From the NCBI GenBank assembly GCA_013152385.1, contig JAADGL010000042.1, forward strand, positions 1-64,000: a stretch of DNA of 64,000 bases. Direction: 5' to 3'. Made by a program: the position numbers and the translations under genes. This document shows positions 1 to 57,400 of this stretch, one piece after another (positions within the stretch are counted from its first letter, which is position 1; each line of letters begins with the position of its first letter). The stretch is from Acidobacteriota bacterium (GTDB taxonomy: Bacteria; Acidobacteriota; Holophagae; Thermotomaculales; Thermotomaculaceae). The notes below the pieces were generated by a model, which saw only the letters and a list, made by a program, of their open reading frames with translations, did not search any database and was not told the origin of the DNA.

Positions 1-761
1 GCCAAAACCACACAATCTCACAGGCAAACCCAAGCATCCTGAACGCAGGAAAAACTGCCACTGCCGATGATATTCTGAATTCAGCAAAACAGCAGGGGGT
101 TCATCACATCACATTCACCTACACAGAACCGACCGTTTTTTATGAACTGATGCTGGAAACAGCCAGACTGGCAAAGCAGAACAGCCTGACCTGCTCTGTG
201 GTATCCAACGGATTTATCAACCCTGAGCCGCTGGCCGGGCTTCTGCCGTTCATTTCCGCTGCAAATATTGATTTAAAATTTTCATCAGACAAGCTCTATC
301 AATCAATTGCCGGAGGCCGGGCAAAACCCGTAATCGAAAGTATCCGTACACTCTATGACTCCGGCATCATAACCGAGGTTACCACCCTGATTATTCCCGG
401 CCTCAATGACGGAAAAGACGAATTCCTGAAAATTGCCCGGTCAATTATGGAAATCTCGCCGGAAATTCCCTGGCACATCAGTGCATTTTATCCCACTTAC
501 AAAATGACAGACCGGCCGCCCACTCCCCCGGACACCCTGACCCGGCTGAGACAAACAGCCCTGAATGCCGGAATGCGGCACGTCTACACCGGAAACATCA
601 CGGACCCGGAAGGAAATACAACTTTCTGCCCCGAGTGCCACAGCGAATTGATCCGGCGCCACCGGCTGTCCTTCCATTCCAGCCGACTGAAAAACGGGCA
701 TTGCCCCAATTGCGGCACGAAAATTTACGGAAAATTTCCGGCAGGTATATTAAATAGATAG
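1..761 (+). CDS. amrS: AmmeMemoRadiSam radical SAM enzyme AmrS, 5' end cut by window
   Basis: Only the C-terminal ~252 residues are present. The open frame starts with QNHTISQ, which in AmrS proteins follows directly after the last cysteine of the CX3CX2C iron-sulfur motif, so the cluster cysteines lie just outside the window. A TYTEPTVFYE segment follows, typical of pyruvate-formate-lyase-activase-like radical SAM proteins. The C-terminus has a zinc-ribbon-like pair (CPECH about 40 residues before the end, then CPNCGTKIYG), also typical of AmrS. Members are ~330-340 residues, so ~80 are missing. Family members use S-adenosylmethionine radical chemistry; the physiological substrate is not established, and partner genes (AmmeMemo proteins) are not visible here. 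Confidence 0.85.
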   Translation, partial: QNHTISQANPSILNAGKTATADDILNSAKQQGVHHITFTYTEPTVFYELMLETARLAKQNSLTCSVVSNGFINPEPLAGLLPFISAANIDLKFSSDKLYQSIAGGRAKPVIESIRTLYDSGIITEVTTLIIPGLNDGKDEFLKIARSIMEISPEIPWHISAFYPTYKMTDRPPTPPDTLTRLRQTALNAGMRHVYTGNITDPEGNTTFCPECHSELIRRHRLSFHSSRLKNGHCPNCGTKIYGKFPAGILNR

Positions 762-803
762 TTTCTTTTTTCTTTTTCCGGCCTTCAACCTTCAGCCCGG
801 CTT

Positions 804-1097
804 TCAGCTCTTTCGTTTAAGAATTTCCTTCCGGATCCGCTCTTTTGCCTCATCGGATAAACATTCGGTCCCCGAAATGGTATTCGCTTTCGGCGCTGCA
901 GGCCCGGATCCCAACATTTCCCGTATCGCAAAGAGCTGACGGCGATATCGATTACAGAATCGACAAAAAAGAATATGGAACCGAATCCGGACTTTATCCC
1001 GCCATGAAATCGGATAATCCATGGATTCCGATATTTTTTCCGTAATCACATCGCAGGGGGCACTCAGCCGGTCAATCAACGGCATCATAATTTTCAT
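804..1097 (-). CDS. Small zinc-finger protein, probable anti-sigma partner of the upstream ECF sigma factor
   Basis: A 97-residue protein starting MKIMMPLID. This start is chosen because GGAG lies about 6 bases upstream; a longer reading would overlap the sigma gene. A conserved-looking core has CDVITEKISESMDYP, then FHILFCRFCNRYRRQL: a Cys...His-X3-Cys-X2-Cys arrangement as in zf-HC2-type anti-sigma zinc fingers. The rest is basic and helical with no membrane segment, so it would be a soluble regulator rather than a membrane-tethered anti-sigma factor. It begins ~28 bases after the sigma factor stop on the same strand. Function is inferred from the motif and the neighbour; binding to the sigma factor is not shown by sequence alone. 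Confidence 0.65.
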   Translation of the reverse strand: MKIMMPLIDRLSAPCDVITEKISESMDYPISWRDKVRIRFHILFCRFCNRYRRQLFAIREMLGSGPAAPKANTISGTECLSDEAKERIRKEILKRKS

Positions 1098-1125
1098 TAA
1101 AACTCCGGATTTCCTTTTCAATTGA

Positions 1126-1770
1126 TCACTCCTTCCCCGGCAACGCATTAAACCAATTCAGATCCAGACATTTACGAAGTTGTGCCCTGGCCCGGTGCAA
1201 CATCACCCACAGGTTAGACGTGGAAATGGAAAATTCCTTACAAATCTCCTCACTTCTCCATCCTTCCATTTCCCGGACAGTAAAAACGACAGCAAGTGAA
1301 CGGGGCAGATATTCAAGACAACGCAACAACACATCATTGAAATCCTTATTTTCCAGAAATCGCTGTGGGTTTTTGCCCCAATCCGACGGTGCAGCACCCG
1401 GTTTCCAGTGGCCTTTCTCTTTCCCTTCCGATTGAAAATCCGCCGCTTCTTCAACAGTATAAAACTCCGGAAAATTGGTTATTCTCGCATTTTTCCGATA
1501 ATGGTCAACAATTTTGCGTTTCAGAATTCCCGTAAGCCAGGTTCTCTCGGAACTTCGCCCCTCAAAACTTGCAGTGGATTTCAGTGCGGCAAGAAAAGTT
1601 TCCTGAACCATATCTTCCGCAAGATGGGTATTGTGAATTCTCAACAATGCGAAACGGTACAGATAATCACCATGATTATCCACCCAATGTTCCGGATCGG
1701 TGAGTAAGCTGTCTCTGTCCCGGACACTTTTTATTTTCTGACTTTCAGTTTCTGGTTCAGACGTGCTCAA
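1126..1770 (-). CDS. ECF-type RNA polymerase sigma factor (sigma-70 family)
   Basis: 214 residues. Region 2 is seen around residues 35-65 (YLYRFALLRI, AEDMVQETFLAAL) and region 2.4 in RTWLTGILKRKIVDHYRK. After a ~45-residue charged linker (EGKEKGHWKPG...) region 4 follows at ~145-205 with the helix-turn-helix EGWRSEEICKEFSISTSNLWVMLHRARAQLRKCL. There is no region 1.1 or 3, as expected for the extracytoplasmic-function class. The linker between regions 2 and 4 is somewhat long. It lies upstream of the small zinc-finger gene on the same strand, the usual sigma/anti-sigma order, and is separated from the cytochrome gene upstream by a strong terminator. Its target promoters are unknown. Confidence 0.92.
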   Translation of the reverse strand: MSTSEPETESQKIKSVRDRDSLLTDPEHWVDNHGDYLYRFALLRIHNTHLAEDMVQETFLAALKSTASFEGRSSERTWLTGILKRKIVDHYRKNARITNFPEFYTVEEAADFQSEGKEKGHWKPGAAPSDWGKNPQRFLENKDFNDVLLRCLEYLPRSLAVVFTVREMEGWRSEEICKEFSISTSNLWVMLHRARAQLRKCLDLNWFNALPGKE

Positions 1771-1879
1771 TACACCGCTCCCTTTAGATTAATCCTGCTG
1801 TGTTCCCTGTACACACAATCACACAAATGGTTCTTTTTCTCAAGTGATTATTGATTCCCCGGGCAATATGCAGGATGAT

Positions 1880-1912
1880 AAAAGGGGAAACCGGAATCCG
1901 GTTTCCCCTTTT
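1880..1912 (-). terminator. Rho-independent terminator of the cytochrome gene
   Basis: Perfect inverted repeat AAAAGGGGAAACCGG-AAT-CCGGTTTCCCCTTTT; read on the minus strand the second arm ends in TTTT. It lies ~60 bases after the cytochrome stop and ahead of the sigma factor, so the two are probably separate transcripts. Confidence 0.85.
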
Positions 1913-1971
1913 ATTATCAAAGAAATTGATCTTTTTTACAAAGATCAACTTCCATCAAGCAGTTTGAAGAA

Positions 1972-3951
1972 TTAATCATCTCCCCCAGGGCCGTTGTGGC
2001 ACTGATAACAGGAAACCCCGCTGGTGCCTCCCCGGTAATCCGCACCGTGGCACCGTGCACAGGACGCGTAGCCATTATTTTCCACATAATCACCGTGGCT
2101 CTTTTCCCAGCCGTCAGGATGCGGACTCGCGGTATGAGGGTTGCTTCCGGTCCGCCCGTCTGTATGACAGACAGAACAGTTTCCCAGCGCACCCGGCTTC
2201 CCCTGCAGAAGGATGTTCTGCTCATTATCCCCGGCATACCCGGATGCGAGAATGGCGTGGGTGGAACCATGACAGGACTCACAGTACATACCGCCATGGC
2301 CGGTAGACATTCTGTAAAGCTGTCCCGCAGGTGTTCCATATTCATGGCAATCTCCGCAATTCGGCTCATCCAGCCACGGCCTCCGGGAACCGTTGCCCAC
2401 ATCCGCCATGGTTCCGTGACAGTCCGTACATTCTTGACCTGCCTGAAACATGGCACCTCTCAGGCATTGGGTAGAGGGTCCGGGATGGCAATTATAACAG
2501 CCGTCGATACCGGCCGGAACTTTATCTTTGTGTTTCCTGTGAATAACATGAGAAAGGTCGTCCTGATTTCCAGTTGTTCCCAAAGCGTTGGACGAATGGC
2601 AGGAAGCACATAAGACCGGGCGATTGTCCATCAAATGTGTCCCTTCCTCTCTGTCATGAAGGCTGAGTATGTTGGTTCTATAGAAACCTGTGGCAATTCC
2701 TTTCACACCATTATCCTCATGGCAGTTAGAACAGTGCATCTCATTTGACACCGGTACAATCGTTCGTGTCTGAGCCAGAATATTTCCGGAGGCATCTTTC
2801 GCCGTCACAACGGCAGTCTGATAATAGTTAACCGTTCCGTCGTCGTTAAATTGGGTTAATGGAATACCTTCCGCTATGAAATGATCGGATGCTCTGTCCA
2901 TTACATCCTCAAGACGTTTTCCTTTCAATCCCACATCCTGAGCCAATTGAAATCCGAAAAGCTTGTCCGCATAATTCCAGAAATTGGTTTTCCCAACTGA
3001 GGTGGTATTATTTTCAAAAGAATAACTGACCGTCACGCCATCTGTAACAATCTCGGGGCTTGCACCCCTTCGAACCACCTGGGCCCAGAGAACATTGTAG
3101 GGGGGCAGAATAGAAAAAGTGGAAAAATCGTCATCATAGCAATGCATACCGAGATCATTCCACGCAATTACCACATAGGCGCTTGCCGGGTCCCCGCCGC
3201 CGGTTCCCCAGGGGACTTCCGTTGCAGGTTCCGCTTCCGTAAACAACAGTTTTTTATTCTGAATACCGGAAATATTCAATCCAGCCAATGAAACCGGTGC
3301 GGATGCATACACTCGAACGCATTGATCCCATGGAAAATCAGGGCCGAACGCATTTCCGTCGTTCAGTACAAATGCCATCCGGCTGTGGCCGGGAACATCA
3401 CGGCTGAAAGATCCCAAAACACGCACACTGCCGTCCACCGCCGAAAACCGAACAGTTGCGGATTGATCCGAGGTATTGACAAGAGCAAGGCCTTTCCACG
3501 TCAGGGCCCGGTTGTAGGTCCCGAAATTGAATGCCAGTATCGGTGCCGTCACCTCAGTCAATCTGAATTCGGCAACACCGCCGTCTATCCGGTTCCGGTA
3601 AACCACACGAAAAGAAAGTGTCGCTCCGTCAGAAACCCGGATCATACCGGTCACGCTGTCAGGAAAACGGCTGTCGAACAGATTAATCTCACTGTATCCG
3701 AATCCCGGAAGCGGGAAATTGTCCGTAAAAACAGATCTTCCCGCTTCATTGAACAGCTCCAGAACAAAACTTGCCTCATTTCCCTGAAGATTATCCACAA
3801 TGAGCAGACAGTCCCATGTGCTTCTTTCCGTGGGAATGTGTGGCAGCACATAGTTTTTTCCGACAGATTGCCCAGCCTGAACCAAACTCCACGGTGCCCC
3901 GGCAAACTGCATGAGTACAACTGCTGCAAACACGTACAATTTCGTTTTCAT
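1972..3951 (-). CDS. Secreted multihaem (nine CXXCH) cytochrome c with N-terminal beta-repeat modules
   Basis: 659 residues. Start ATG at 3951 is set by AGGAGG five to six bases upstream. Residues 1-27 are a signal peptide ending in a V-Q-A type cleavage site. Residues ~30-245 hold two copies of the beta-rich module found in three other secreted proteins of this window (YVLPHIPTERSTW; later LTWKGLALVNTSDQSATV). A middle region with AWNDLGMHCYDDDF follows at ~270-400. The C-terminal ~255 residues hold nine haem-binding CXXCH motifs (CSNCH, CASCH, CYNCH, CTDCH, CGDCH, CESCH, CSVCH, CARCH, CYQCH). The protein should be exported and haem-loaded outside the cytoplasm and act in electron transfer; the redox partner is unknown. 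No cytochrome maturation or porin gene lies nearby. A strong terminator follows. Confidence 0.9.
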   Translation of the reverse strand: MKTKLYVFAAVVLMQFAGAPWSLVQAGQSVGKNYVLPHIPTERSTWDCLLIVDNLQGNEASFVLELFNEAGRSVFTDNFPLPGFGYSEINLFDSRFPDSVTGMIRVSDGATLSFRVVYRNRIDGGVAEFRLTEVTAPILAFNFGTYNRALTWKGLALVNTSDQSATVRFSAVDGSVRVLGSFSRDVPGHSRMAFVLNDGNAFGPDFPWDQCVRVYASAPVSLAGLNISGIQNKKLLFTEAEPATEVPWGTGGGDPASAYVVIAWNDLGMHCYDDDFSTFSILPPYNVLWAQVVRRGASPEIVTDGVTVSYSFENNTTSVGKTNFWNYADKLFGFQLAQDVGLKGKRLEDVMDRASDHFIAEGIPLTQFNDDGTVNYYQTAVVTAKDASGNILAQTRTIVPVSNEMHCSNCHEDNGVKGIATGFYRTNILSLHDREEGTHLMDNRPVLCASCHSSNALGTTGNQDDLSHVIHRKHKDKVPAGIDGCYNCHPGPSTQCLRGAMFQAGQECTDCHGTMADVGNGSRRPWLDEPNCGDCHEYGTPAGQLYRMSTGHGGMYCESCHGSTHAILASGYAGDNEQNILLQGKPGALGNCSVCHTDGRTGSNPHTASPHPDGWEKSHGDYVENNGYASCARCHGADYRGGTSGVSCYQCHNGPGGDD

Positions 3952-4043
3952 CTTTCCTCCTTGTTGTATCCACCCATCCACTCCCCTCACATGATGGGGA
4001 AATTATCAGCCGGTATCAAGGCCCATCCCTGACGATTATTAAT

Positions 4044-4071
4044 AATATATGCATATGCTTATAGAACACAA
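4044..4071 (-). promoter_or_regulatory. Candidate sigma-70-like promoter of the cytochrome gene
   Basis: On the minus strand TTGTGT (-35) and TATATT (-10) are separated by 16 bases; the predicted start would be near 4037, giving a leader of about 85 bases. The match is moderate and inferred from consensus only. Confidence 0.35.
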
Positions 4072-4098
4072 CGTTCTTTTCCCGGTTTATGACGATAC

Positions 4099-4112
4099 GT
4101 GATCCGGCTCAC
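4099..4112. promoter_or_regulatory. CRP-family-like palindrome GTGA-N6-TCAC
   Basis: GTGATCCGGCTCAC has both half-sites of the CRP core exactly. It lies ~68 bases upstream of the predicted cytochrome transcription start, a spacing class used by CRP-type activators. The flanking T/A of the full consensus are missing, so it is a weaker site than the one upstream of the mmd operon. Confidence 0.35.
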
Positions 4113-4294
4113 CATAATAATTCCCATTACTGAAAATATCCGGAGTCCTGAATTGGACTGCAGATAAGCTCACATCCCACAATGAACAGCCTTCGGCTGA
4201 AAGACAGAACTACCGGTTTGCAGGACATTTAGCCAAACTCCGCACTCATCCTCTTCCCCCACTGTAACCTGCAACACAAAGAAAATTATAGTCA

Positions 4295-4322
4295 TTGACA
4301 AAATTTACAAAAAAGTTATATT
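4295..4322 (+). promoter_or_regulatory. Promoter of the LRR protein gene
   Basis: Consensus TTGACA followed after 16 bases by TATATT, in an AT-rich stretch. The ribosome site AGGAGA lies at 4345-4350, six bases before the ATG at 4357. Confidence 0.65.
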
Positions 4323-4356
4323 ATAAGTAATATTTATTCTCGATAGGAGAGAACTC

Positions 4357-6873
4357 ATGAAACGTGCGGCTTTAATTCCGGTTTTATTCATGTTCGGAAT
4401 TTTGGGAATGTCCCAGGATTATTATCTTATTAATCACATCGCGGAAGAGGGTTGGTCCACTACCATCACTGTATACAATGACGGGTTGTCGGACCGCAAC
4501 ATTATCCTTCACTATCGGTCACATCCAGGAGAACCGGAAACCACCTTCGGTGATCTCACAATCCCTGCCAATGAATCCGTTGCTTTTGACAATACATTGT
4601 TCGGGTATGACGGTGTGGCAAAAGTTGAAACAGAGCCGGATGCCCCGGTCCGGGTCAAACTCTCTTACCGCTACGGCGATTCACATTCACTGGCAGAGTT
4701 CATTCTACCAAAGACAACTCCGACAGGCACATCTCCAAGGCAATGGGTCATTCCCAACCCCGGCCTGTCTCATATGGACTGGCTGGGGTTCGCCATTGCC
4801 AATTTTAACACGGACAATGCCAGGGTTACTCTGGAAGCGTACAAAAACGGAGATCTGGTAGGAACAAGTGGCATTGACCTTATTCCGGACAGCAAATACG
4901 TAGATATCAGTTCAGGTTTCTTCCCGGGGCTGAATTATCCGGATATGGACATGGTGATTATAAAATCCGACATTGTGATTCCGCCGCCGGTCGCGATTAT
5001 CGGCAATACCGCACAAGACCGGCACCTGTTCTTCCTCGGCTCTGCTTACGCCGCAGGTATATTTGTTTTTCCCCAAACCTATACGATTCCTCATGTAGCA
5101 GAATCCAAATGGCACACCATAGTTACCGCCATCAACACCGGAGACACGGAGGAAACAATGACATTGAACAGCTGGGAAAGCAACGGAATCACAGACCGGG
5201 CAGGCGTAACATTTGCCGTACCGGCACGGGGCTCCCTCACACTGGCTGCAGGGACAGACTTTGGCCATGAAGGAACAGCATCTGTCACCGTCAATTCATC
5301 GGTGCGGGTCAAACTCAGTTATCAATACCAGGATTCCGAATCCATCAGCGATTTCATGCTGACAGCTGACACCGGGAAAGAGTGGATTCTGCCAAATTCC
5401 ACCCACGCTTGGTTCCAGTGGCTCGGAATCGCTGTAGCCAATCCCAATGAGTTTGAAACTGCCATCGCCATTGACGCATACAACAACGGAATCCTGCTCG
5501 GTACATTCGCCAAAAAACTTGCCCCACATACCAAATTTGTAGACCTTTCCGGCAATATCTGGCCCGGAGTGGATTATACCGGCATTGACATGGTCCTGGT
5601 CCGATCCGATCAGCCGGTCACCGCACCCATTTCCATCACCGGAAACACGGCACAGGACCGGCATGTGTTCTTCCGAGGCTCCAAGTTGAACCGGGAAACC
5701 GAATCCGGAGTATCAGACCCCGCATTCGACGCTTACCTGCTGGCGAATTTCGATACAAATAATGACGGCGTAATCTCAGTCGCGGAACGGGACCTGGTAA
5801 CTGAAATTGACACATCCGTCAACAACCCATGGCATGGGAAAATAAAAGACATCACCGGCATCACCAACTTCAAAAATCTGGATACTCTGATCTGTCAAAA
5901 CGAAAACCTCAGCTGGTTGCCGAACATGCCCGGCATGTCGCACCTGCGTGTTCTGAAAGCACCGAACAATCGTATCGTTCGTATAGATAGCTTTGATCCA
6001 CTGGAGGGCATGTTCCACCTTTACCTGGACAACAACCAGCTGGAGACCATTCCAGATGTCTCCGCCATGACAGCTCTGCAAACGCTCTGGATCAAGTATA
6101 ATCATCTAAGTGAAATCCCCGGTATTTCCACACTCACCGGGCTGAAATTCTTGATGATTGATGGAAACCGATTCACAACGCTACCGGACCTGACAGCGTC
6201 GGCGGCCAGCATCACCAATCTCCGTTTTTCGTCCAATCAGATTGACAGTATCTATAATTTATCGACACTTCCCCATTTGCAGGCCCTGGACTGCAGTTAT
6301 AACAATCTTTCATCCCTTCCGGGGCTTTCGTCGCTCAGCGATCTGAATTTTTTTGTTTGCAGTTTCAATCAGATTACTTCTCTGAACGCACTGTCTTCCA
6401 TGACACACCTCACCTGGATCGGATGCAGTGGCAATCCCCTCATGTCCCTGCCGGATCTTTCCGGAAATACGCAGTTGGCCTACCTGTGGTGTGAAAACAT
6501 GAACATTTCAAGTATACCGGGGCTGCCCGCTTTCTCCCACATGAAGTGGCTGTACTGCGATAATACCGACATCAGTGATCTGTCGGGCATTTCCGGTTTC
6601 ACCGAGTTGGAAAACCTTGATGCCCGGAACACGCTGATCACATCCCTGCCGGATATGTCCGCTCTCACCCAGTTGAAATACCTGTACGTGCATGATTGTC
6701 TCTTAACCGACATCCCGGACATTACCCACAGCACACAGCTCGTAGAGTTCAAATGTTCCGGCAATTATTTCGGGAACGATGATTGCAGCCGGATCCATGC
6801 GATTTCCGCTATGGGGATCCCGGCCTTCATATACAACCCGCAACACGACGGCAGCACGCTGACCTGCCCGTAA
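4357..6873 (+). CDS. Secreted leucine-rich-repeat protein with duplicated beta-modules and an EF-hand-like loop
   Basis: 838 residues. A short signal peptide (MKRAALIPVLFMFGILGMS) is followed by two large homologous halves at ~19-230 and ~240-445. Each ends in nearly the same string (GNTAQDRHLFFLGS and GNTAQDRHVFFRGS) and each is itself made of two of the shared beta-modules. Around residues 466-477 DTNNDGVISVAE is a textbook EF-hand calcium loop. Residues ~490-838 are about 14 short leucine-rich repeats of the LxxLxCxxNxLxxLPxL type, of the irregular 20-23-residue kind seen in secreted bacterial LRR proteins. It probably acts at the cell surface or outside the cell in protein binding; no enzyme domain is seen. 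It has its own promoter and terminator. Confidence 0.85.
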   Translation: MKRAALIPVLFMFGILGMSQDYYLINHIAEEGWSTTITVYNDGLSDRNIILHYRSHPGEPETTFGDLTIPANESVAFDNTLFGYDGVAKVETEPDAPVRVKLSYRYGDSHSLAEFILPKTTPTGTSPRQWVIPNPGLSHMDWLGFAIANFNTDNARVTLEAYKNGDLVGTSGIDLIPDSKYVDISSGFFPGLNYPDMDMVIIKSDIVIPPPVAIIGNTAQDRHLFFLGSAYAAGIFVFPQTYTIPHVAESKWHTIVTAINTGDTEETMTLNSWESNGITDRAGVTFAVPARGSLTLAAGTDFGHEGTASVTVNSSVRVKLSYQYQDSESISDFMLTADTGKEWILPNSTHAWFQWLGIAVANPNEFETAIAIDAYNNGILLGTFAKKLAPHTKFVDLSGNIWPGVDYTGIDMVLVRSDQPVTAPISITGNTAQDRHVFFRGSKLNRETESGVSDPAFDAYLLANFDTNNDGVISVAERDLVTEIDTSVNNPWHGKIKDITGITNFKNLDTLICQNENLSWLPNMPGMSHLRVLKAPNNRIVRIDSFDPLEGMFHLYLDNNQLETIPDVSAMTALQTLWIKYNHLSEIPGISTLTGLKFLMIDGNRFTTLPDLTASAASITNLRFSSNQIDSIYNLSTLPHLQALDCSYNNLSSLPGLSSLSDLNFFVCSFNQITSLNALSSMTHLTWIGCSGNPLMSLPDLSGNTQLAYLWCENMNISSIPGLPAFSHMKWLYCDNTDISDLSGISGFTELENLDARNTLITSLPDMSALTQLKYLYVHDCLLTDIPDITHSTQLVEFKCSGNYFGNDDCSRIHAISAMGIPAFIYNPQHDGSTLTCP

Positions 6874-6881
6874 CGGAATAT

Positions 6882-6924
6882 GCGATTTTCCCTGCCCGGC
6901 CCAATCCCGGCAGGGAAAAATCGC
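6882..6924 (+). terminator. Terminator of the LRR gene
   Basis: GCGATTTTCCCTGCC pairs with GGCAGGGAAAAATCGC nearly perfectly, followed by TCAGTTTTT. It starts nine bases after the stop codon. Confidence 0.75.
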
Positions 6925-6999
6925 TCAGTTTTTCACGGCATAAGTATAAATGCACTGTTCTTTTCAACCCATCACAACTCACAAATTATAAGTCAGTAA

Positions 7000-7008
7000 T
7001 GCTATACT
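7000..7008 (+). promoter_or_regulatory. Extended -10 promoter element for murB
   Basis: TG-C-TATACT matches the extended -10 pattern; no good -35 is visible. The predicted start lies about 20 bases before the murB ATG at 7035. Confidence 0.4.
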
Positions 7009-7034
7009 GTTTCGGGAGAAGACGGAGGGCAACA

Positions 7035-7946
7035 ATGCTGCAAACATGCTCATTTTTACAGCAAAACGGAATTTTGTATCGGGAAAACCACCCGATTCGA
7101 AGCCATACGGCATACAAAGTCGGGGGCAACGCAAAACTGGCGGTGTTTCCCGATTCCCTTCCACAGTTTCACTCCGTCATCGGCTGGTGCCGTTCCCGGA
7201 AACTGCCGTTTTTTCTCATCGGCGGCGGCGCAAACATCATCGTTTCGGATGACGGGCTCCCCGGAGTTACCATCTTTACAGAACAACTGAACCGGTTATT
7301 CCTGAAAAACGGGAAAATCATTGCCCAATGCGGCGTTTCCATGGAATCGCTTGCCCTTTTTGCCGCCGGACACGGCATCAGCGGTTTTGAATTTCTCTAT
7401 GACATTCCCGGATCCGTGGGTGGTGCCCTGGTGATGAACGCCGGAAATAACGACGGCGAAATGAAAAACATTACCTGCTTTGTTCAAGCCGCTGCCGCGA
7501 CGAACCGGCTTGTTACACTGAATCAGCACCAATGCAAATTCAGCTACCGCACCAGCCGGTTCAAAAAAGAAAAACTGGTGGTGCTGCAAGCGGCATTCAA
7601 TGCCTCGAACCGGAAATCGGGAAAGATAATCCGTTCCGAAATGAATCGCATAAAAAACCAGCGCCGCCGGAAATTTCCCATAGAATTCCCCAACGGCGGC
7701 AGTGTGTTCAAACGCCCTCCCGGCGGCTATGCCGGACGCCTTATCGAAACCGCGGGCTGCGGCGGACTGCGGGTGGGAGATGCGCAGGTATCTGAAAAAC
7801 ATCGGGGATTTATTATAAACACGGGCAATGCCACTGCTGCCGATATTCGCGGGCTCATTGCCCTTGTACAAAAGAGGGTCAAAGAAACTCACGGCATTTT
7901 ACTGGAACGGGAACAGATTTTTCTGCCGGAAGACATGGAGAAATGA
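7035..7946 (+). CDS. murB: UDP-N-acetylenolpyruvoylglucosamine reductase MurB (type II)
   Basis: 303 residues; ATG at 7035 is chosen because GGAGGG lies five bases upstream and the protein then begins in register with the family. It performs the NADPH-dependent reduction that makes UDP-N-acetylmuramate for peptidoglycan. FAD-binding motifs are clear: HTAYKVGGNA (~25-35), FFLIGGGANIIVSDDG (~60-75), YDIPGSVGGALVMNAGNN (~118-135). The substrate-binding YRTSRF and the GGSVFKRPPGGYAGRLIETAGC segment with its catalytic serine follow, then VSEKHRGFIIN. The protein lacks the insertion of long type I enzymes. It is followed after one base by a methyltransferase, with no other cell-wall genes nearby. 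Confidence 0.95.
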   Translation: MLQTCSFLQQNGILYRENHPIRSHTAYKVGGNAKLAVFPDSLPQFHSVIGWCRSRKLPFFLIGGGANIIVSDDGLPGVTIFTEQLNRLFLKNGKIIAQCGVSMESLALFAAGHGISGFEFLYDIPGSVGGALVMNAGNNDGEMKNITCFVQAAAATNRLVTLNQHQCKFSYRTSRFKKEKLVVLQAAFNASNRKSGKIIRSEMNRIKNQRRRKFPIEFPNGGSVFKRPPGGYAGRLIETAGCGGLRVGDAQVSEKHRGFIINTGNATAADIRGLIALVQKRVKETHGILLEREQIFLPEDMEK

Positions 7947-7947
7947 A

Positions 7948-8676
7948 ATGTATGAATCCCTCGCATCGGTTTATGAAGAAATTTTTTCGCTGAATCCTGA
8001 GGCTCTTGCCTTTATTCAAAAACAGTTGCCCCCGCCGGGCAGAGATACTACCGTTCTTGATATCGGCTGCGCCACCGGAGAACTGTGCCGCCGGCTTTCG
8101 GCACTGGGCTACTCTGTCACAGGAGCGGAACCGGACAGGGAAATGCTTGCACTGGCAAAAAAACGCTCCCATGGAAAAATCCCCTTTTATCCCATCGGCA
8201 TGGAGGATACCGGAACACATTTCCCGGAAAATTCCTTCACCGCCGTTCTCTGCCTCGGCAACACCCTGGCGCATCTGCAAAACCCGAACGCAGTTCAGAG
8301 CTTTTTCAATGACGTAAAATCCCTTCTTTCGCCGGGCGGCCGGTTTGTTTTTCAGATTGTGAACTTTGACAGACTTTCACCGGAGCATTTGCCGGAATTC
8401 CCGGTAATTGAACGAAATAACATCCGGTTTATCCGAAAATATGAATGGACAGAGAATGGCGGTGCAATCCGTTTCATCACAACACTTGAAAATAAATCCG
8501 GCGGCACCAGGCAGACCGGAGAATGCCGTCTCTTCCCCGCAAAACAGAAACAACTGTCCGGCGCATTGACAAAAGCCGGATTCTCCGGCCAGAGCTGGTT
8601 TGGAAATTACAAAGGCGATCCATTTTTGCCAGACAGCCCCGCTACTATCTGCGTAGCGGAAACCGCGGAGAGATAA
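7948..8676 (+). CDS. Class I SAM-dependent methyltransferase, substrate unknown
   Basis: 242 residues. ATG at 7948 begins one base after the murB stop, with GGAG seven bases upstream inside murB, so translation is probably coupled. The Rossmann-fold SAM motif is VLDIGCATGELCRRL at ~36-50, followed by an acidic residue in GAEPDREML (motif II) and FTAVLCLGNTLAHL (motif IV-like), then LLSPGGRFVFQIVN (post-motif). The C-terminal part is beta-rich. Members of this group methylate small molecules, but the substrate cannot be named. The pairing with murB may be only operonic. Confidence 0.8.
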   Translation: MYESLASVYEEIFSLNPEALAFIQKQLPPPGRDTTVLDIGCATGELCRRLSALGYSVTGAEPDREMLALAKKRSHGKIPFYPIGMEDTGTHFPENSFTAVLCLGNTLAHLQNPNAVQSFFNDVKSLLSPGGRFVFQIVNFDRLSPEHLPEFPVIERNNIRFIRKYEWTENGGAIRFITTLENKSGGTRQTGECRLFPAKQKQLSGALTKAGFSGQSWFGNYKGDPFLPDSPATICVAETAER

Positions 8677-8679
8677 AAA

Positions 8680-8703
8680 AGGCCGGCTGTTTAGAGCCGG
8701 CCT
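8680..8703 (-). terminator. Terminator between convergent methyltransferase and C1A protease genes
   Basis: AGGCCGGCT-GTTTAG-AGCCGGCCT. Read on the minus strand it is followed by TTTTTT, so it is a strong terminator for the protease gene; on the plus strand the T-tract is weak. Confidence 0.75.
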
Positions 8704-8729
8704 GTTCCGTATTTCAAAACAATCAGAAT

Positions 8730-11700
8730 TTATTTTTTCCCGGTTAACGCGGTCATATAGGTTCTGGCATTGTCACCGCTTACCACGAGGCCCAGTACCG
8801 GCACACCGGAACTGTAACGGATATAATCTCCGTCCTCAACAACCGCACTGTCAAACAACTGGCTTACAACTGCCGTAAACCGGCATTTTGCGCCGATATT
8901 CTCCGTCTTTTCCGCTTTCACATCTCCGTCTTTGTTCACCAGCTGAATCGTAACCACCGCCTCATTGTTCCCCGGGTTGGTGATTCCGATACCGGTCCAG
9001 AGGCCCTCGCCGTTCAAAACTTCCGGCAGATACCCCTCCGTTGTGGCAACCGAAGGCAGGCCGAACCCACAGATGGCGGAATCGGCAGTTCCGTAAATTT
9101 CGATTCCGGCAATATCCCGATCCGATTGAATCACGCCCCAATCCACCTGTCCGTAGAGGTCGGGGAAAATGTCCTCAACGGTTTCTTTAATCTTCCCGGA
9201 TGCCGGGATTGTAAGGGACTTTGAACCCTTCAGCTCGCCGTCTTTGGTATACACACTGACTGTAACCGTTGCCGGGGATGCCTGATCCAGATTCACCAGA
9301 GCAAATCCGGTCCAGAAAATATTGGTTTCCTCCGGAATATGCGGAAGAAACAGGGTTGTCCCTCCAAAAGCAGGTAATTCAACAGCCGCACCATCTGTAC
9401 CGTTATGAACAAACATTTCAAATCCATTTAAACTGTTTGTCTGGGACTGGAAAGGATTGCTGGACACGGTTTGCACCGTACCCACACCACAGTTTTCACC
9501 TCCGGATTGAGGCAGAAAAGATTCCAGGTCAATAAAATTCCCCTGTTTATTCAACTGGCTTTCATGGTCGGTACCGGCAACCCGGATATTAATCGTACCC
9601 GGTTGTAAATCCTCAAGAAACATCATGGTATCCCAATAATCCGATTCCTCCGCAATATGAGGAATCGACAAACTTCCATGATACAGCGAAGAAAGATAAG
9701 CTGTCATTTTTCCGTTTTCCATGGACAAAGACGCATAAACCAGGGGACAGCGGTCCGCCTTGGTAATCACATCGGTACAATTCCCGGGAATATCTTCATT
9801 CCCGTTCAGTACCAGCCGCCCGTATGCCGGAATCTCTTTTGAAGTTGTACTCAAAACACTGCCGTCCGCGGCCAGATACTGAATCGTCAAATTCATATCT
9901 GTGTCATTTGTATTGATAAAATTGGTATCCATCCCGGTAAAGGAAATCCCCTTTTGGGAAACAGCCACAACACTGGGAATCACCACCGGAACACTTTCCG
10001 GTTTGATAATGGTAATTTTCGCATCCCGCCCCCGGTCATCTTTCAAAGTTGCCGTTGCCGTTTCGCCCTCATCATCCACAACGGTAACTTTTACCGTATA
10101 CACGCCTTCCTGCCGGAAGGTATAATTCAATACAGGCGCACAGCCGAGAATCTTCTCCGTTTCACTGCCCTGAATTTCCCAGATATACTGCAGAATCTTT
10201 CCGCCGTCCGGATCATCGGCTTCACAGTGAAACTCCACCGCTGTCGGAGCAACAACAGAAATTGTTCTGGTTTCCGCAAGGGAAATCTCCGGATTCAGGG
10301 AAGTGGAAAACTTCGCCTTGATACTGTGGGACGCATTGACATTCAAAAAGGAATAGGTAGAAACTCTTCCGACAGATTGGCCGTCCACCTGAACATCATT
10401 GATAAAATACCCTTCATCCGGCGTAATGGTAAAAGACTGGTCTGTTCCATGCTCCACCTGAATATCTCCGGACGGGTCAATGGAACCGCCCTCAGAAACC
10501 GCTGTGGCAGTGATGGTATAAAATTCCTGATTCACTTCAAACTGCACTTCAATCGTATGATTTGCCTGAATGTTGTGAAACGTGTATACAGTCACAACCC
10601 CCACACTGGAGCCGTCAACCTTTACATCCTTAATGTGATACCCATCATCCGCATGAAAAGTATACGTTTTGTCCGCACCGGCGGAAGCAAGAGAATTTCC
10701 ATCCGGTGAAATGGATCCGCCTTCATTGGCGCTTGCCGTAATGGTGTATACCGTATCTGTAAAATAAACAGTAGCCTGTCCTCCGCTGCTGTAACTGAAA
10801 CTCACCGGTGTATCATAACTGGTGTAATCTTTCCCCGAAGCAATAAAATGTACCGCGTAAGTATTGATTGTTCCGGAGTCCCCGTGATCCAGATCCCCAT
10901 CCGAATTGTAATTCATATGCAAAACAACCGAATCGCAGGTTCCGGGATCAATATCCGTCAGGTCCACCGCAATCGCATTCGTCGGAAAAGGATGATAGTC
11001 ATAATCATCCTGATTCACATAAAAATGCAGGATCTCAAAACTTTCCCCGTTTGAACCTGTAAATTCCGGAACCATCTGCCTTGAATAGCGCTGGACCACC
11101 GAAAAAAGAGCGTAAGAATCCGGTTGGTAATCGTTCCGGTCATCCACCCAATAGGCATACCCGCCGGAAAGGTCGGTTCCATATTTAATTGCCTCATAGG
11201 AAATCCAGTAAAAGCCATTATCTCCCCAGCCGGTCCCCCATGAATTCACCACCCTGAAAGCACCGGTTCCATCCGGGGTTACAATCGTATCGTCGTATCC
11301 GACAATACACTGGGCATGGCCGCCCCGATTCGAACCGGTTTCATCCGCAAGGGCATAAATATTGTTATAATCCGAAATATTGTCATAATTTCCGTAAACA
11401 GCAATTCCAAAGGTTACCAGATGGCCATTCAGCAGAAGTTGTTTCACCTGATCCAGGGCCGCATCGTCCACCAGTTTGAGATAATTCATCGCGTATCCGG
11501 TCGGTGCCTCCGTCCGCTTATACATCGCATTTTTAAAAGCATCGGTAGACGGCCAGGTTGTATAATCACTGCTGTCATATGGCATTTCCGTGAGAGAAGC
11601 ACAGCCAAAATCATCCAGCACCCGGAAAGCATCTTCAAAATATGCGCCGTTGTCCCCTTCCGCATGAACGAGATTATAAATAAATGCCGGACTGCATATA

Positions 11701-12071
11701 TTATCGGTATTCTGCAACTCTGCCGCAGTTGTCCGGTTATGTTCCTTATTTTCCTGATAAGTCTTGTAATAATAGCCGACCGCCCATGCAGTGCAGGACC
11801 CCTGTGCGCCCTGATTGTCCACCGGGGGAAGATACTGGCTATTGTCACAGGATGTCGCCTTATATCGGCTGTAATCAATCGCCTTTGCTGCGGGAAAAAC
11901 TCTCAGCACCCGTCTGGCTTGAGGGTCTGTTTCCGGATTTCTGAAAATCAATCCGGTCTGGTGTGCATTCTTCTCCGAAAGAATAAAAGAACCATTGCTC
12001 TGCTTACTCTGGGAAAAGCCCAGACAAGTAATCAAACTAAAAAAAACTAAGGTAAAAATAATCCGTTTCAT
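8730..12071 (-). CDS. Secreted papain-like (C1A) cysteine protease with InlB/Flg_new-like repeats, PKD domain and C-terminal beta-modules
   Basis: 1113 residues. ATG at 12071 is preferred over a TTG three bases earlier; GGGAGGGG lies 5-12 bases upstream. Signal peptide 1-21. The peptidase domain covers ~65-310 with catalytic Cys93 in QGAQGSCTAWAVGY, His252 in GGHAQCIVGYDD and Asn276 in VVNSWGTGWGDNGFYW, so it looks active. No long inhibitory propeptide is seen. Then come two repeats of ITASANEGGSISP type (~440-590), a PKD-like domain (~600-680, ending VKVTVVDDEGETATA) and about four copies of the shared ~100-residue module (~700-1113; SIPHIAEESDYWDTM, FLPHIPEETNIFWTG). It probably degrades external protein and stays attached to the surface through the C-terminal modules, which is inference. 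Confidence 0.88.
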   Translation of the reverse strand: MKRIIFTLVFFSLITCLGFSQSKQSNGSFILSEKNAHQTGLIFRNPETDPQARRVLRVFPAAKAIDYSRYKATSCDNSQYLPPVDNQGAQGSCTAWAVGYYYKTYQENKEHNRTTAAELQNTDNICSPAFIYNLVHAEGDNGAYFEDAFRVLDDFGCASLTEMPYDSSDYTTWPSTDAFKNAMYKRTEAPTGYAMNYLKLVDDAALDQVKQLLLNGHLVTFGIAVYGNYDNISDYNNIYALADETGSNRGGHAQCIVGYDDTIVTPDGTGAFRVVNSWGTGWGDNGFYWISYEAIKYGTDLSGGYAYWVDDRNDYQPDSYALFSVVQRYSRQMVPEFTGSNGESFEILHFYVNQDDYDYHPFPTNAIAVDLTDIDPGTCDSVVLHMNYNSDGDLDHGDSGTINTYAVHFIASGKDYTSYDTPVSFSYSSGGQATVYFTDTVYTITASANEGGSISPDGNSLASAGADKTYTFHADDGYHIKDVKVDGSSVGVVTVYTFHNIQANHTIEVQFEVNQEFYTITATAVSEGGSIDPSGDIQVEHGTDQSFTITPDEGYFINDVQVDGQSVGRVSTYSFLNVNASHSIKAKFSTSLNPEISLAETRTISVVAPTAVEFHCEADDPDGGKILQYIWEIQGSETEKILGCAPVLNYTFRQEGVYTVKVTVVDDEGETATATLKDDRGRDAKITIIKPESVPVVIPSVVAVSQKGISFTGMDTNFINTNDTDMNLTIQYLAADGSVLSTTSKEIPAYGRLVLNGNEDIPGNCTDVITKADRCPLVYASLSMENGKMTAYLSSLYHGSLSIPHIAEESDYWDTMMFLEDLQPGTINIRVAGTDHESQLNKQGNFIDLESFLPQSGGENCGVGTVQTVSSNPFQSQTNSLNGFEMFVHNGTDGAAVELPAFGGTTLFLPHIPEETNIFWTGFALVNLDQASPATVTVSVYTKDGELKGSKSLTIPASGKIKETVEDIFPDLYGQVDWGVIQSDRDIAGIEIYGTADSAICGFGLPSVATTEGYLPEVLNGEGLWTGIGITNPGNNEAVVTIQLVNKDGDVKAEKTENIGAKCRFTAVVSQLFDSAVVEDGDYIRYSSGVPVLGLVVSGDNARTYMTALTGKK

Positions 12072-12101
12072 CAAACCCCTCCCCGGATTCTTTATCAGGA
12101 A

Positions 12102-13493: not shown

Positions 13494-15713
13494 TCAGTTT
13501 TCTTTTTTTGACAGAAATGTCTTTTTTACAATGTCAACAAAGATGGTGAGGGCACCGAGAATTATCAGGGAATCCGGCAGAATCCGGAACCACATCCAGC
13601 CTTTTACCGCTTCCACGGTTTCCCTCGCACGGGCGGCATGGTAACCCAGTTTGTAGGCAATTTCCGTCTGATGGAATCCGATTATCAGTGTGGGAAGGGA
13701 GAAGAGGACGATTCCGATTGTTACCAGCCAGAAACCGATTTTGCTGAATTTGTCATCCCATACCCTGCCCTCCGTTGCCGCTTTTGAACGGGCCACAATG
13801 TAGATGAAGGCAATGGAGATGTAGCCGAAAGCACCCAGCAGTGCCACATGGCCGTGAGGCATGATCAGGTAAGTGCCGTGTGAGTAGTAGTTGACAATGG
13901 GCAGGTTTGCAATCATTCCAAGGAAACCGGCACCGTACCAGTTGAGGAAGGCGGAACCGGTCAGCCACATGAAGGGAACGGTGAAGATGAATGCTTTCCC
14001 TTTTTGTTTTGTGTCTTTATATTCTTTCCAGGCTTCTATCATCAGGATAACCAGCGGAACAGGTTCCATTGCGGAGAATGCGCCGCCGATTGCGACCCAG
14101 TATTCGTCCAGCCCCTGCCACCAGTAGTGATGCCCCACACCGAGTATTCCGGACATCATAATCAGAACAAGTTCAAAGAGCATGACCTTTTCAGCGGTTT
14201 TCCGCGGAACCAGCCCCAGCAGGACAGCAAGATAAGCCAGTACGCCGGCTGCGAAAAGTTCAAAGGTCAGTTCCACCCAGAGGTGAACCACCCACCAGCG
14301 GTAGTAGTCATCCACGGTAAAGTTGGGCATGATTTTCTGAACCGGCATCATGCCGGCGATGTAGAGGGTGGCGATTCCAAATGCCGACCAGATGATAGTT
14401 CCCACCATTACGTTGTTTTCTTTGGCTTTCCGGATGGTGCTGAATACCATCAAAAACCAGAGTACCAGGCCCACGACAAGGCCGATATCCCAGACCCGGC
14501 CAAGGTTCAGGTACTCACGGCCCTCATTGCCCAGCCAGAACCAGGCATCACGGAGATGCCCCGTCGCCCCGGCGTAAATGCCGAAGATGCCACCGGCCGC
14601 CACAATGACCAGCGCCAGCCACAGCACGTCCACCAGCCAGGGAAAGCGCAGGTCTTTTTTCGCCACTAAAGGCGCAATGAACATGCCACCCACCAGCCAG
14701 CCGACGGCAACCCAGATAATTGCAATGTTAATATGAAGCGCCCGCATGACATTAAACGGAATGATGCTTTGACTTAAAATAAAGTTCTTTGCTGGTTCCG
14801 TGTAAATGTGCGCGATGTAGCCGCCGAGAATGACCTGCAGGAGAAAAAATAATGACACTACAGGAAGGTATTTGAAGAGTTTTTTCTGGGAAGGAAAGAG
14901 GGAGTCCAGAACCAGAGGTTCTTCCAATACATCATCTTTATTCTTTTTGATGAAATATTCGTACATCAGATAGAGGATAAGGATGGTCATGGTCCAGAGG
15001 AGCAGGACCTCCATCAGTGACCAGAACAGACTGGACCAGCCGACATTCTGATCAATCAGAGGTTCGGACGGCCAGTTATTGCTCCAGGTTCTGTCGGTTC
15101 CCGGCCGTTTTGTTGTCGCGACCAACTGGCCCCAGTCAAAAAATACAGCAATTTTTTTCGCTTCTTCCGGCCGAATGACACCGCCCGGCCATGCAAGCTT
15201 TTTATCTCCGTTAACCAGAAAATTCGTCCAGTAATCCACAGTCCCGCGGAAAGCAGCGGTTGATGCGGGGGAATAGCGAACCAGTTTTTTGTTCAGTTCC
15301 GTTTTGTCCAGATCCGCTTTTACCATTTCTTTGACCGCACCCCGTTGAACATCGGTCAGTTCATCAGCTGTCACACCGAATTTTTCATGGGCATAAGCAT
15401 TATAGAGCGCCAGAATCCGGCGATGCATGGTTTCTTCGGTAAAATCAGGGCCCAGATATGCGCCCATTCCCAGCATCGTGCCGTAATCCATCAGGTCAAA
15501 TTCCTGAAAATAACCTTTTCCCTTCACCACATCGTCGTAGGTGTACAGGGTGGAGCCGTCCGCCGCCACTACTTTCTGCGGAATCGGGGGGACTTCCCTG
15601 ACCAGGTTGGCGGTAAACCCGATCAATGCCACAACCATCACAATGGCAAACGCCCAGAATGCCGTGTACAGCCCCTTTTTACTCATTAACTTGTCCAACC
15701 AGGATTGTTCCAT
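13494..15713 (-). CDS. norZ: Quinol-dependent nitric oxide reductase (qNOR)
   Basis: 739 residues, a normal length for the fused NorC-NorB form. It reduces two NO to N2O with electrons from quinol in the cytoplasmic membrane. An N-terminal helix (~15-37) is followed by a periplasmic domain to ~220 that lacks a haem c CXXCH motif, and then about 12 membrane helices. Active-site motifs are intact: HLWVELTFE near 476, GVGHHYWWQG near 527 (two histidine ligands of the non-haem iron), SAMEPVP, and HGTYLIMPHGHVALLG near 611-626 with the haem b and b3 ligands. No norC or norQ/D partners are needed or seen. It probably serves NO detoxification or denitrification; it stands alone with its own terminator and an FNR/DNR-like site upstream. 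Confidence 0.93.
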   Translation of the reverse strand: MEQSWLDKLMSKKGLYTAFWAFAIVMVVALIGFTANLVREVPPIPQKVVAADGSTLYTYDDVVKGKGYFQEFDLMDYGTMLGMGAYLGPDFTEETMHRRILALYNAYAHEKFGVTADELTDVQRGAVKEMVKADLDKTELNKKLVRYSPASTAAFRGTVDYWTNFLVNGDKKLAWPGGVIRPEEAKKIAVFFDWGQLVATTKRPGTDRTWSNNWPSEPLIDQNVGWSSLFWSLMEVLLLWTMTILILYLMYEYFIKKNKDDVLEEPLVLDSLFPSQKKLFKYLPVVSLFFLLQVILGGYIAHIYTEPAKNFILSQSIIPFNVMRALHINIAIIWVAVGWLVGGMFIAPLVAKKDLRFPWLVDVLWLALVIVAAGGIFGIYAGATGHLRDAWFWLGNEGREYLNLGRVWDIGLVVGLVLWFLMVFSTIRKAKENNVMVGTIIWSAFGIATLYIAGMMPVQKIMPNFTVDDYYRWWVVHLWVELTFELFAAGVLAYLAVLLGLVPRKTAEKVMLFELVLIMMSGILGVGHHYWWQGLDEYWVAIGGAFSAMEPVPLVILMIEAWKEYKDTKQKGKAFIFTVPFMWLTGSAFLNWYGAGFLGMIANLPIVNYYSHGTYLIMPHGHVALLGAFGYISIAFIYIVARSKAATEGRVWDDKFSKIGFWLVTIGIVLFSLPTLIIGFHQTEIAYKLGYHAARARETVEAVKGWMWFRILPDSLIILGALTIFVDIVKKTFLSKKEN

Positions 15714-54405: not shown

Positions 54406-57400
54406 TTAATAAAGTGCATTCACCCCGCTCAAGTACATGAAATTCTGATCGCCAAACAGTTCAAACCCGTGAATCGGCTGATCGGAAGTTACCTTAATCC
54501 AGCGAATATCATCTGTCACGGAAGAAAAAATATCGTTGGTACCTGTTCCGCCGACAACAGAAACAACCCGTTTCCCTTTTGCAAGGAGTTTTGTGGTATG
54601 CGCTACCTGCTCACCCACCGCATTGTACCCGTTAATTGTCACATTGGCGAGACTGTCGCCTGCATTCAAGAGGACAATTCCCGACCAGACGTTCGAGGTC
54701 AGTTTTGGGGTGTACGCATAGACCAGTTCCGAAGATCCGGCATCCAGAGGCCTGGCTTCCACACCGGCCAGCGCATCCTTTGAACTTGCATCTCCGGAAG
54801 AATCAATCCCGAACAGCTCATATCCGGTAATGGGAGCATCAGCTGTCACTTTAATCCACTTCACACCATCCGGATACTCACCATCTGCCCAGAACGACTG
54901 AACGAGCTTGGCCAGCTTCTCTCCGGCATCCATCGTAAAACTTGTCGCAGTCAATTCGTTTCCATTATCATCGTAGGGAGTAAACGTCACATTAATCGTT
55001 GAGGCATTGGGATTATTCAATGCTATCCCGGTCCACCAGAGCCAGGATGTCTCCACATGGGGAATTACAATTTCATTTGAAGTGGTTTCATTGAGGAGCA
55101 ATGCGGCTGCCTGGTTCAGATTGTCATTCTCCTGAACAAAAACTTCCATTCCCACAATACCGGCATTACTGACAATTTTCCCCCACCAATGAGAGCTGTC
55201 AGAAGAGCTGAACGGGTAAGTGCCGTTGTAAAGGTCCTGGACAACATCAAGGAAATTGGAAGTATCCACCCCGCTGAAATCTGGAATATCAATAGCCGTA
55301 CCACCCTGGGGCACAAATTGAGCACTAACGCTTCCGGTCCCGGGATTCGCCACACTGATCATTGTATTCCACTGATTTGTCTGTTCCGCAATATGGGGGA
55401 CATAGAGCATATTAGACAAGGTGCCGGTCCCGGGAATTGCGGCTGCTGACTGTTCACTGCCGTCTGCGTTATAGATGTCAACTCCAGCCATGGCCTTAAC
55501 CTCTTTATTTGACATAACAACGGCCCAACCCTGGTCTGAAGGGTCTAAATTGTTGTCAGCCATGAACACCCGCCAACCATTTGCCCCCAATGTCCGCTCA
55601 ATGGGTGTTTGAACCAGTTCTCCCTTCTTATCGTAAAACAGAACAACCACTTTCGCACTTGATAAATTCGGGTTTACCACGTAAATGCTGGTAAAATCTT
55701 CCTCATCCCGATCATAATTGGTAACCGTCAACGGAATGTAAACCTTGTTGGTGTAAGACGGAATGGTCGGGGAATCCGTGGCGTTTGCCGGATCCGTACT
55801 GGGTGTTGCATTCAGTTCGGCACCGTCATTGGTGCCATCACCGTCCGTATCCGCCACAAAGGGGTCCGAATGAACATACAGCTCATCACTTTTTTGAAGC
55901 CCGTCGTTATCATTATCAGAGGAACTGGCGACACCGGCAAGAGCTGCCGAATCTACAAAACGGCCAAAATACGGAACCGTGTATGTGTTGCCATAATTAT
56001 CATAGAACTGAAGATAACCTTGAAGATCTGTCGCCACCGGGCCCTGATAGGTAACATTCAAAGTAACAGTCGCAGTTGCACCGGCTGCGAGGCTGATTTC
56101 AGCGGTTGATGCGAGAGAAGCACTGACTTTGCTGTTATCCACCAATTTGATCATGGACGGTTCCAGTTTAATATCAACACCGCTGATATTCTTTACCGTC
56201 ACATCGGTACTGACGGTTGTTGCGTCCTTTGAACTGCTGACATCCACACTTCCAAAACTGATGGCATTGGGAATAATCGTCACTTTTGCATTTGCCGCCC
56301 GCTCCATATTGATTCGTCCGGAACCGGTGAAAACCGTAGATGCCAGGCCGCGGTGATAACTCAAATAATCTATCCCTTTCTCCGTCTGAAAATAGTTCTG
56401 TGTAAAATCAGCGGTGATACACAGAATACTTTTCCAGTCAGCCGGTGTCAATCCGGGAAACAATTGTTTGACTACAGCAGAATATCCTGCAGTCAAAGGT
56501 GTGGAGAAACTGGTCCCCGCCTCAAGAACCGCAAATCCGCTTTCATCATACATGGTATTTGAATCATGGTTAATGGACTGAGTGGCCAATGTCAGCTGAT
56601 TTCCGATTGTAGATACATCCGGTTTCAGGTTGTAATCAATATTTGTCGGCCCGTAAGAAGAAAATATAGACTTGTATCCATCACTCTGCGCCGGATACGC
56701 CGTGCCGAAAGAGGCCTCAACGTCATAACCGTTTTGCAACATCTGAATAATCTGCTGGCCTTCCTCAAGACGAATGAAAAAACCGGGGATTGTTGTCTGA
56801 TAGGGTGCACAGGTCAGTCCACTCATATCCATGTTCAAAATTCCGCCCTGCTGAGTGCCGTCCTGGGAAGTTGTGCCGTCTGCGAGGTAGTTGTAAACAA
56901 TAACCCCGATTGCTCCGGCCTGTTCCGCATTATAAATTTTCTGGCAGAATGCACAGCTTCCGCGTTTAATCAGGGCAATTTTTCCCGTGAGATCAACGGA
57001 ACCGAAATCGCTGCACCCCTCGGGATCAACACCGAGATCTTCAATGCTGACCACAGGGTACGGCCCGAAATGACTTAAGTTTTTTGCGACCCGCGTATCT
57101 GTTCCGTAGCGGAAATTATCCAAAGAATCAGGAACCGTCCCGTTACTGGATGTGATTGTTCCGGCAAGCATCAATGTCCGTGCATTCTCAACCGCACCGA
57201 CGGTTACCGCGCTGGGGGCAATCCCGGGGCTGCCAACACTCCCCTCTGCAAGTTCAAATGTGTCCCAATTGTAACTTCCATCAGGATTTTTGCTGACAGT
57301 ATATCCCTCATTTCCCGCAGCGATACAGACCATGGTCCCTGCCTGTACGGCATTCTCCACCGCGGTTACCTGAGAATCGTTGTCCGCGCTTTGCGTAGCT

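Follow-up and report, generated by a model that had tools for sequence, protein, structure and literature searches.

Four exported proteins encoded in the window, the whole 64-kb stretch of acidobacterial DNA analysed here, share one repeated module. We propose that the module belongs to a divergent ASRAH branch, related to ASRT and TM1070, which multiplied in this lineage of acidobacteria as an appendage that can be transferred between the termini of exported proteins, and that it attaches these proteins by binding glycans; for identity and role taken together we estimate a probability of roughly 0.6. Three things previously apart are now linked: an orphan repeat, the functionally unassigned Pfam family DUF5719 and the ASRT fold. 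For a domain type that may rank among the commonest in the secretome of the lineage, the link supplies a structural template as well as a class of ligands that can be tested.

A repeated module on four exported proteins

The four carriers are an exported nine-haem c-type cytochrome (positions 1972-3990, minus strand) with nine CxxCH motifs and matches to Cytochrome_C7 and MtrC/MtrF-like II/IV; an exported leucine-rich-repeat (LRR) protein (4357-6873, plus strand); an exported C1A protease of the papain family that also contains InlB-B-type and PKD repeats (8730-12074, minus strand); and an exported subtilase S8 protease with a PA domain (54406-58239, minus strand). The cytochrome has two units and the LRR protein four, all N-terminal, and each protease has four C-terminal units. 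These copy numbers, 14 units of about 105 residues, agree with those in a preliminary description of the window, which had also called the two halves of the LRR module near-identical; their identity is only 38%.

Units are classed by the position of a Trp relative to the Asn typical of the superfamily. Iterated profiles identified 88 units across 29 frames of retrieved loci; the Asn is present in 83 of these units, and the Trp lies at N-7 in 43 (B-type, WTGhAhhN) and at N-8 in 22 (A-type, PHhAEE..W.T), that is, in 65/88 overall. Pro and His usually stand upstream of the Trp, and Ala occupies N-3 in 38/88. In the cytochrome, an A-type unit (3550-3864, minus strand) starts right behind the signal peptide and is followed by a B-type unit (3220-3549, minus strand) and then by the nine-haem region. 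The LRR module likewise starts right behind the signal peptide and alternates A-type (4411-4734), B-type (4735-5073), A-type (5074-5373) and B-type units (5374-5688, all plus strand) before an EF-hand-like stretch and the leucine-rich repeats. The C1A tetrad, on the minus strand, consists of a divergent unit without the PH motif (9675-9992), a divergent A-like unit (9360-9674) and two B-type units (9042-9359 and 8733-9041), the last of which ends at the stop codon. The S8 tetrad, also on the minus strand, runs from a divergent unit without Trp (55423-55755) through an A-type unit (55078-55422) to two B-type units (54733-55077 and 54409-54732), again ending at the stop codon. Elsewhere in the window, the large membrane protein encoded at 13494-15713 appears by eye to be a quinol-dependent nitric oxide reductase.

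Homology of the units was assessed by leaving out one protein at a time: a hidden Markov model (HMM) built from the units of three proteins was searched against the omitted fourth, all window frames and 50 shuffles per protein. Each omitted protein was recovered, with full-sequence E-values of 5.6e-29 (S8), 4.1e-13 (cytochrome), 6.4e-21 (LRR) and 7.8e-28 (C1A), and outscored its 50 shuffles and the other window frames, with only the three training proteins ranking higher. Four single units (C1A_1, C1A_2, S8_2 and LRR_1) scored weakly with these models (i-E 0.1-0.8), and weakly scoring units were accepted on tandem context and the iterated profile. The 14 window units are thus homologous and the repeat is real, and the sharing of one module by these four proteins, as first described, is confirmed by all leave-one-out profiles.

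Fold and family identity

AlphaFold2 (AF2) models, built from window sequences and related loci only, are nearly all beta for both the C1A tetrad (pTM 0.86) and the cytochrome dyad (pTM 0.77), each cytochrome unit having eight strands; the shared beta-sandwich anticipated in the preliminary description was predicted for the units of both proteins. When the two models were searched against the PDB with Foldseek, both matched TM1070 (1nc7; probability 1.00, TMt 0.61-0.64), and the C1A model also matched ASRT (2ii7/2ii8/2ii9; probability 1.00, TMt up to 0.73); across the TM1070 and ASRT matches the target-normalised TM score was 0.52-0.73. Better-ranked Foldseek matches (complement, GH2 enzymes, CD109 and the adhesin 6xi3) were discarded on account of TM scores below 0.3 and r.m.s.d. 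of about 15-41 Å.

Profile comparisons point to the same family. Searched against PDB sequences, the unit HMM matched ASRT at E=0.007 over profile positions 21-89. An IgA FC receptor was the best match in that search (E 0.002); it covers only profile positions 12-55, is absent among the listed structural matches and was set aside. HHalign gave probabilities, with E-values for single comparisons, of 93% between the units and a set of bridging acidobacterial tetrads, 94.5% between the bridge and ASRT, and 77% between the units and ASRT directly; the control profiles FN3, DUF11, PKD and InlB all stayed below 4%. FN3, which the preliminary description had named as an example of a well-known family whose high-scoring match to all units would refute its reading, showed no relationship in profile-profile comparison: FN3, PKD and DUF11 gave 0.3-3.5% in HHalign, and no such Pfam match lies over the units. 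The bridge consists of tandem WYFAEG-type tetrads (L073 and L074) that connect ASRT, DUF5719 and the window units; unlike the window units they keep the strand-1 Trp and AEG motif of ASRT, and they come from another acidobacterial family (G154). One of them, L074 (G154:C1, 679-2898), exceeds the Pfam cut-offs of both PF07100 (ASRT) and PF18986 (DUF5719), which is direct evidence that these two families are related, and it is also matched by the unit HMM (unit E 1.9e-4). The direct sequence links between the units and ASRT are modest (E 0.007, HHalign 77%). From profile, HHalign and Foldseek results together, the units are divergent relatives of ASRT/ASRAH and DUF5719 (PF18986), contrary to the earlier view that they could not be tied to a named family, and we regard their homology to the ASRAH superfamily as very likely.

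The ASRAH superfamily was defined by De Souza, Iyer and Aravind in 2009 and includes ASRT of Anabaena and TM1070 of Thermotoga (PMC2739507). Its described members have strands 1, 3 and 4 arranged against strand 2 in two internal repeats (PMC2739507), an arrangement for which the Foldseek matches give indirect support in the units, and the AF2 models of the units share the eight-stranded beta-sandwich of the TM1070 fold. The units also have the nearly invariant superfamily Asn that closes strand 2, followed by an ungapped turn over which they align with ASRT without gaps. The well-conserved hallmark Trp at the start of strand 1, which follows a polar residue in ASRAH domains, is mostly missing: among 47 scorable units, Trp is found in 5 and Trp, Tyr or Phe in 13, and Leu, Tyr or Ile mostly take its place. 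The units are therefore best described as a divergent homologous branch outside all described ASRAH families. The pocket signature of ASRAH family 1 (ASRT-like), SHExxCxxN, is replaced in the units: B-type units have Trp instead of the His, and Ala often stands in for the Cys. Partner range differs as well, with the units riding on many different partners and ASRAH families on one amidase or one lipoprotein.

DUF5719, the sole family that Pfam shows for the units, resembles them in its repeated matches at unit positions, its 319 profile positions corresponding to about three units, and four carriers in the source genome (L031, L035, L038 and L041) exceed its cut-off, although no window protein does so in hmmscan (C1A scored 22.4 bits against a cut-off of 26.2). 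Among the papers searched, none mentions DUF5719 and a single one uses ASRAH as the name of a domain. We infer that DUF5719 corresponds to the third ASRAH family, that of actinobacteria.

Distribution across the Acidobacteriota

The preliminary figure of about 14 units holds within the window and falls far short of the genome. A whole-genome profile search of the 2.57-Mb source genome, assigned to the Acidobacteriota, returned 94 unit matches at E<=0.01, and the 29 frames from fetched loci plus four further carriers that were read amount to 30-odd carriers. The expectation that more exported proteins with unrelated partner domains would carry the module was thereby borne out. Enzymatic partners comprise S8, C1A and C25 peptidases, endonuclease/exonuclease/phosphatase, beta-lactamase-type, GH114 and PHB-esterase domains; the others are the nine-haem cytochrome, LRRs, FG-GAP/LVIVD/PD40 propellers, DUF11, transglutaminase elicitor and beta-helix domains. 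The true number of carriers is probably higher than this count, as repeated modules may break the assembly. Unit matches occur at several contig ends (C6:3-95 and C27:5152-5244, and also C13, C16 and C55), and the ends of C6 and C27 hold the same short match. An LTD/endonuclease-family carrier (L033, G000:C55:1-7000) has unit 4 in a different frame from units 1-3; its frames, 232-5385 and 3-368, overlap in an apparent frameshift near the contig end, either real or an assembly error.

Matches numbered 28-95 per genome in eight other sampled genomes of the same bacterial family, 52-112 in sampled genomes of a second family within that class (f3) and 0 in those of a third (f2). Phylum-wide, 73 of 297 sampled genomes had matches. 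All named near relatives from a scan with the C1A-type alignment as query were Acidobacteriota metagenome-assembled genomes, and tblastn against plasmids and phages gave no matches. Similar repeats are presumably present in deltaproteobacteria, which we take as a lead only. A 24,790-residue carrier in genome G002 was dropped, its frame crossing a stretch of Ns.

Placement at the termini of exported proteins

Nearly all carriers with intact N-termini have a signal-peptide-like hydrophobic stretch, as judged by a hydropathy heuristic rather than SignalP. Modules are mostly terminal, about half of them N-terminal, with one internal exception (L067). N-terminal modules begin shortly downstream of the signal peptide, and in C-terminal modules the last strand mostly ends 10-16 residues from the stop codon, without a tail beyond. 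The restriction of carriers to proteins with signal-peptide-like N-termini, and a type II secretin GspD encoded in the genome, would accord with an export or sorting signal read by a secretion machine, as in the C-terminal domains of the type IX secretion system (T9SS) or of sortase substrates. The preliminary description had named export sorting among the possible roles. Placement at either end and the missing tail weigh against a dedicated sorting signal, as does the T9SS C-terminal domain (PF18962), found once in the genome and outside the unit matches, and we consider this reading highly improbable. SprA was not detected in the genome by a search without a positive control. The lone T9SS-type match, at G000:C42:2370-2576, scores 41 bits and is not a unit match.

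A gingipain-type C25 peptidase (L039:1898-6007) with a propeptide and a MAM domain has a unit tetrad at its end. Bacteroidota homologues would have a T9SS sorting domain at that end.

The mostly terminal position of the modules, their high sequence divergence and their co-occurrence on carriers with PKD, FN3 and InlB-type repeats would also suit an inert spacer or stability domain akin to bacterial Ig-like repeats, serving to distance catalytic domains from the surface or to shield termini in a hot, proteolytic setting. However, a spacer would be expected mostly between an anchor and an enzyme, yet nothing lies beyond the C-terminal modules, and the conserved PH...W...N motifs together with a superfamily that has a ligand cleft imply more than spacing; such a role seems rather unlikely.

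Unit order and a putative glycan-binding role

In secreted ASRAH families the domain invariably comes in dyads or tetrads (PMC2739507), a rule that the window modules follow with 4, 4, 4 and 2 units. Most other modules have two or four detected units, and several with three have a gap the length of one unit or lie at the end of a contig. Unit order is regular: ABAB in the LRR protein and in modules on contigs C18, C58 and C1, AB in the cytochrome and other dyads, and 0ABB in S8, C11, C49 and apparently C1A, where 0 denotes a divergent unit without Trp. TM1070 and ASRT are tetramers (PMC2739507), and each dyad or tetrad of units may by analogy fold into a compact oligomer or pseudo-oligomer resembling the TM1070 tetramer.

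Because the relatives are tetramers, the main rival to glycan binding is a protein-protein or oligomerization scaffold, in which A and B units would pair within or between carriers to build a surface lattice or complex with no glycan involved. Besides the tetrameric state of TM1070/ASRT (PMC2739507), the regular Trp-spacing patterns ABAB (or AB) and 0ABB and the confident multi-unit AF2 models (pTM 0.77-0.86) are in its favour, but within a single chain a tetrad's interfaces could already be satisfied, and we rate a scaffold as a minority possibility.

A glycan-binding role draws on what has been predicted for the superfamily. The ASRAH-type domain is known but little studied, and is predicted to be sugar-binding: a small molecule, most probably a sugar, would be held in a cleft, and the 1nc7 pocket was reported with 1,2-ethanediol (PMC2739507). 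By extension, the clefts of the proposed pseudo-oligomer may bind a sugar or glycan, and, once exported by Sec, proteases, cytochromes, LRR proteins and propeller proteins would then be kept by the module at the cell surface, in the extracellular matrix or on a polysaccharide substrate. Some carriers, namely propeller or LRR proteins, have no obvious link to glycans, which counts against glycan binding; the mostly missing strand-1 Trp, the replaced pocket signature and the modest direct sequence links to ASRT also weigh against the overall proposal. A surface- or matrix-binding role of the module is plausible; for glycan-mediated attachment of the carriers, considered alone, the odds are close to even, if slightly adverse. 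Attachment of this kind would explain the shared extracellular location of diverse proteases, LRR proteins and the nine-haem cytochrome. A broader and more doubtful version would have the ASRAH-like tetrads and dyads act as a general surface-display tag, recognizing a single shared glycan of the envelope or matrix and needing neither sortase nor lipid anchor nor T9SS. If so, the tag would hold a large and functionally mixed set of exported proteins, a multihaem cytochrome among them.

Exchange of whole tetrads between partners

Related partner domains may carry tetrads of different types. The catalytic domains of the window C1A protease and of a C1A protease on contig C17 are 46% identical (E 1e-86), and their tetrads gave no mutual BLAST match at 1e-3. 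The C-terminal tetrad of the C17 protease has 39-42% identity to the N-terminal tetrads of two LRR proteins, and that of the window protease 33-35% to the tetrads of DUF11 and FG-GAP carriers. This pattern shows that tetrads were transferred whole, both from partner to partner and from one protein end to the other, and such en bloc exchange is a clear case of bacterial terminal-module shuffling. At another locus (L045:1-5100), three adjacent paralogues have very similar N-terminal dyads (GRTYYIPHIHT...), apparently through local tandem gene duplication.
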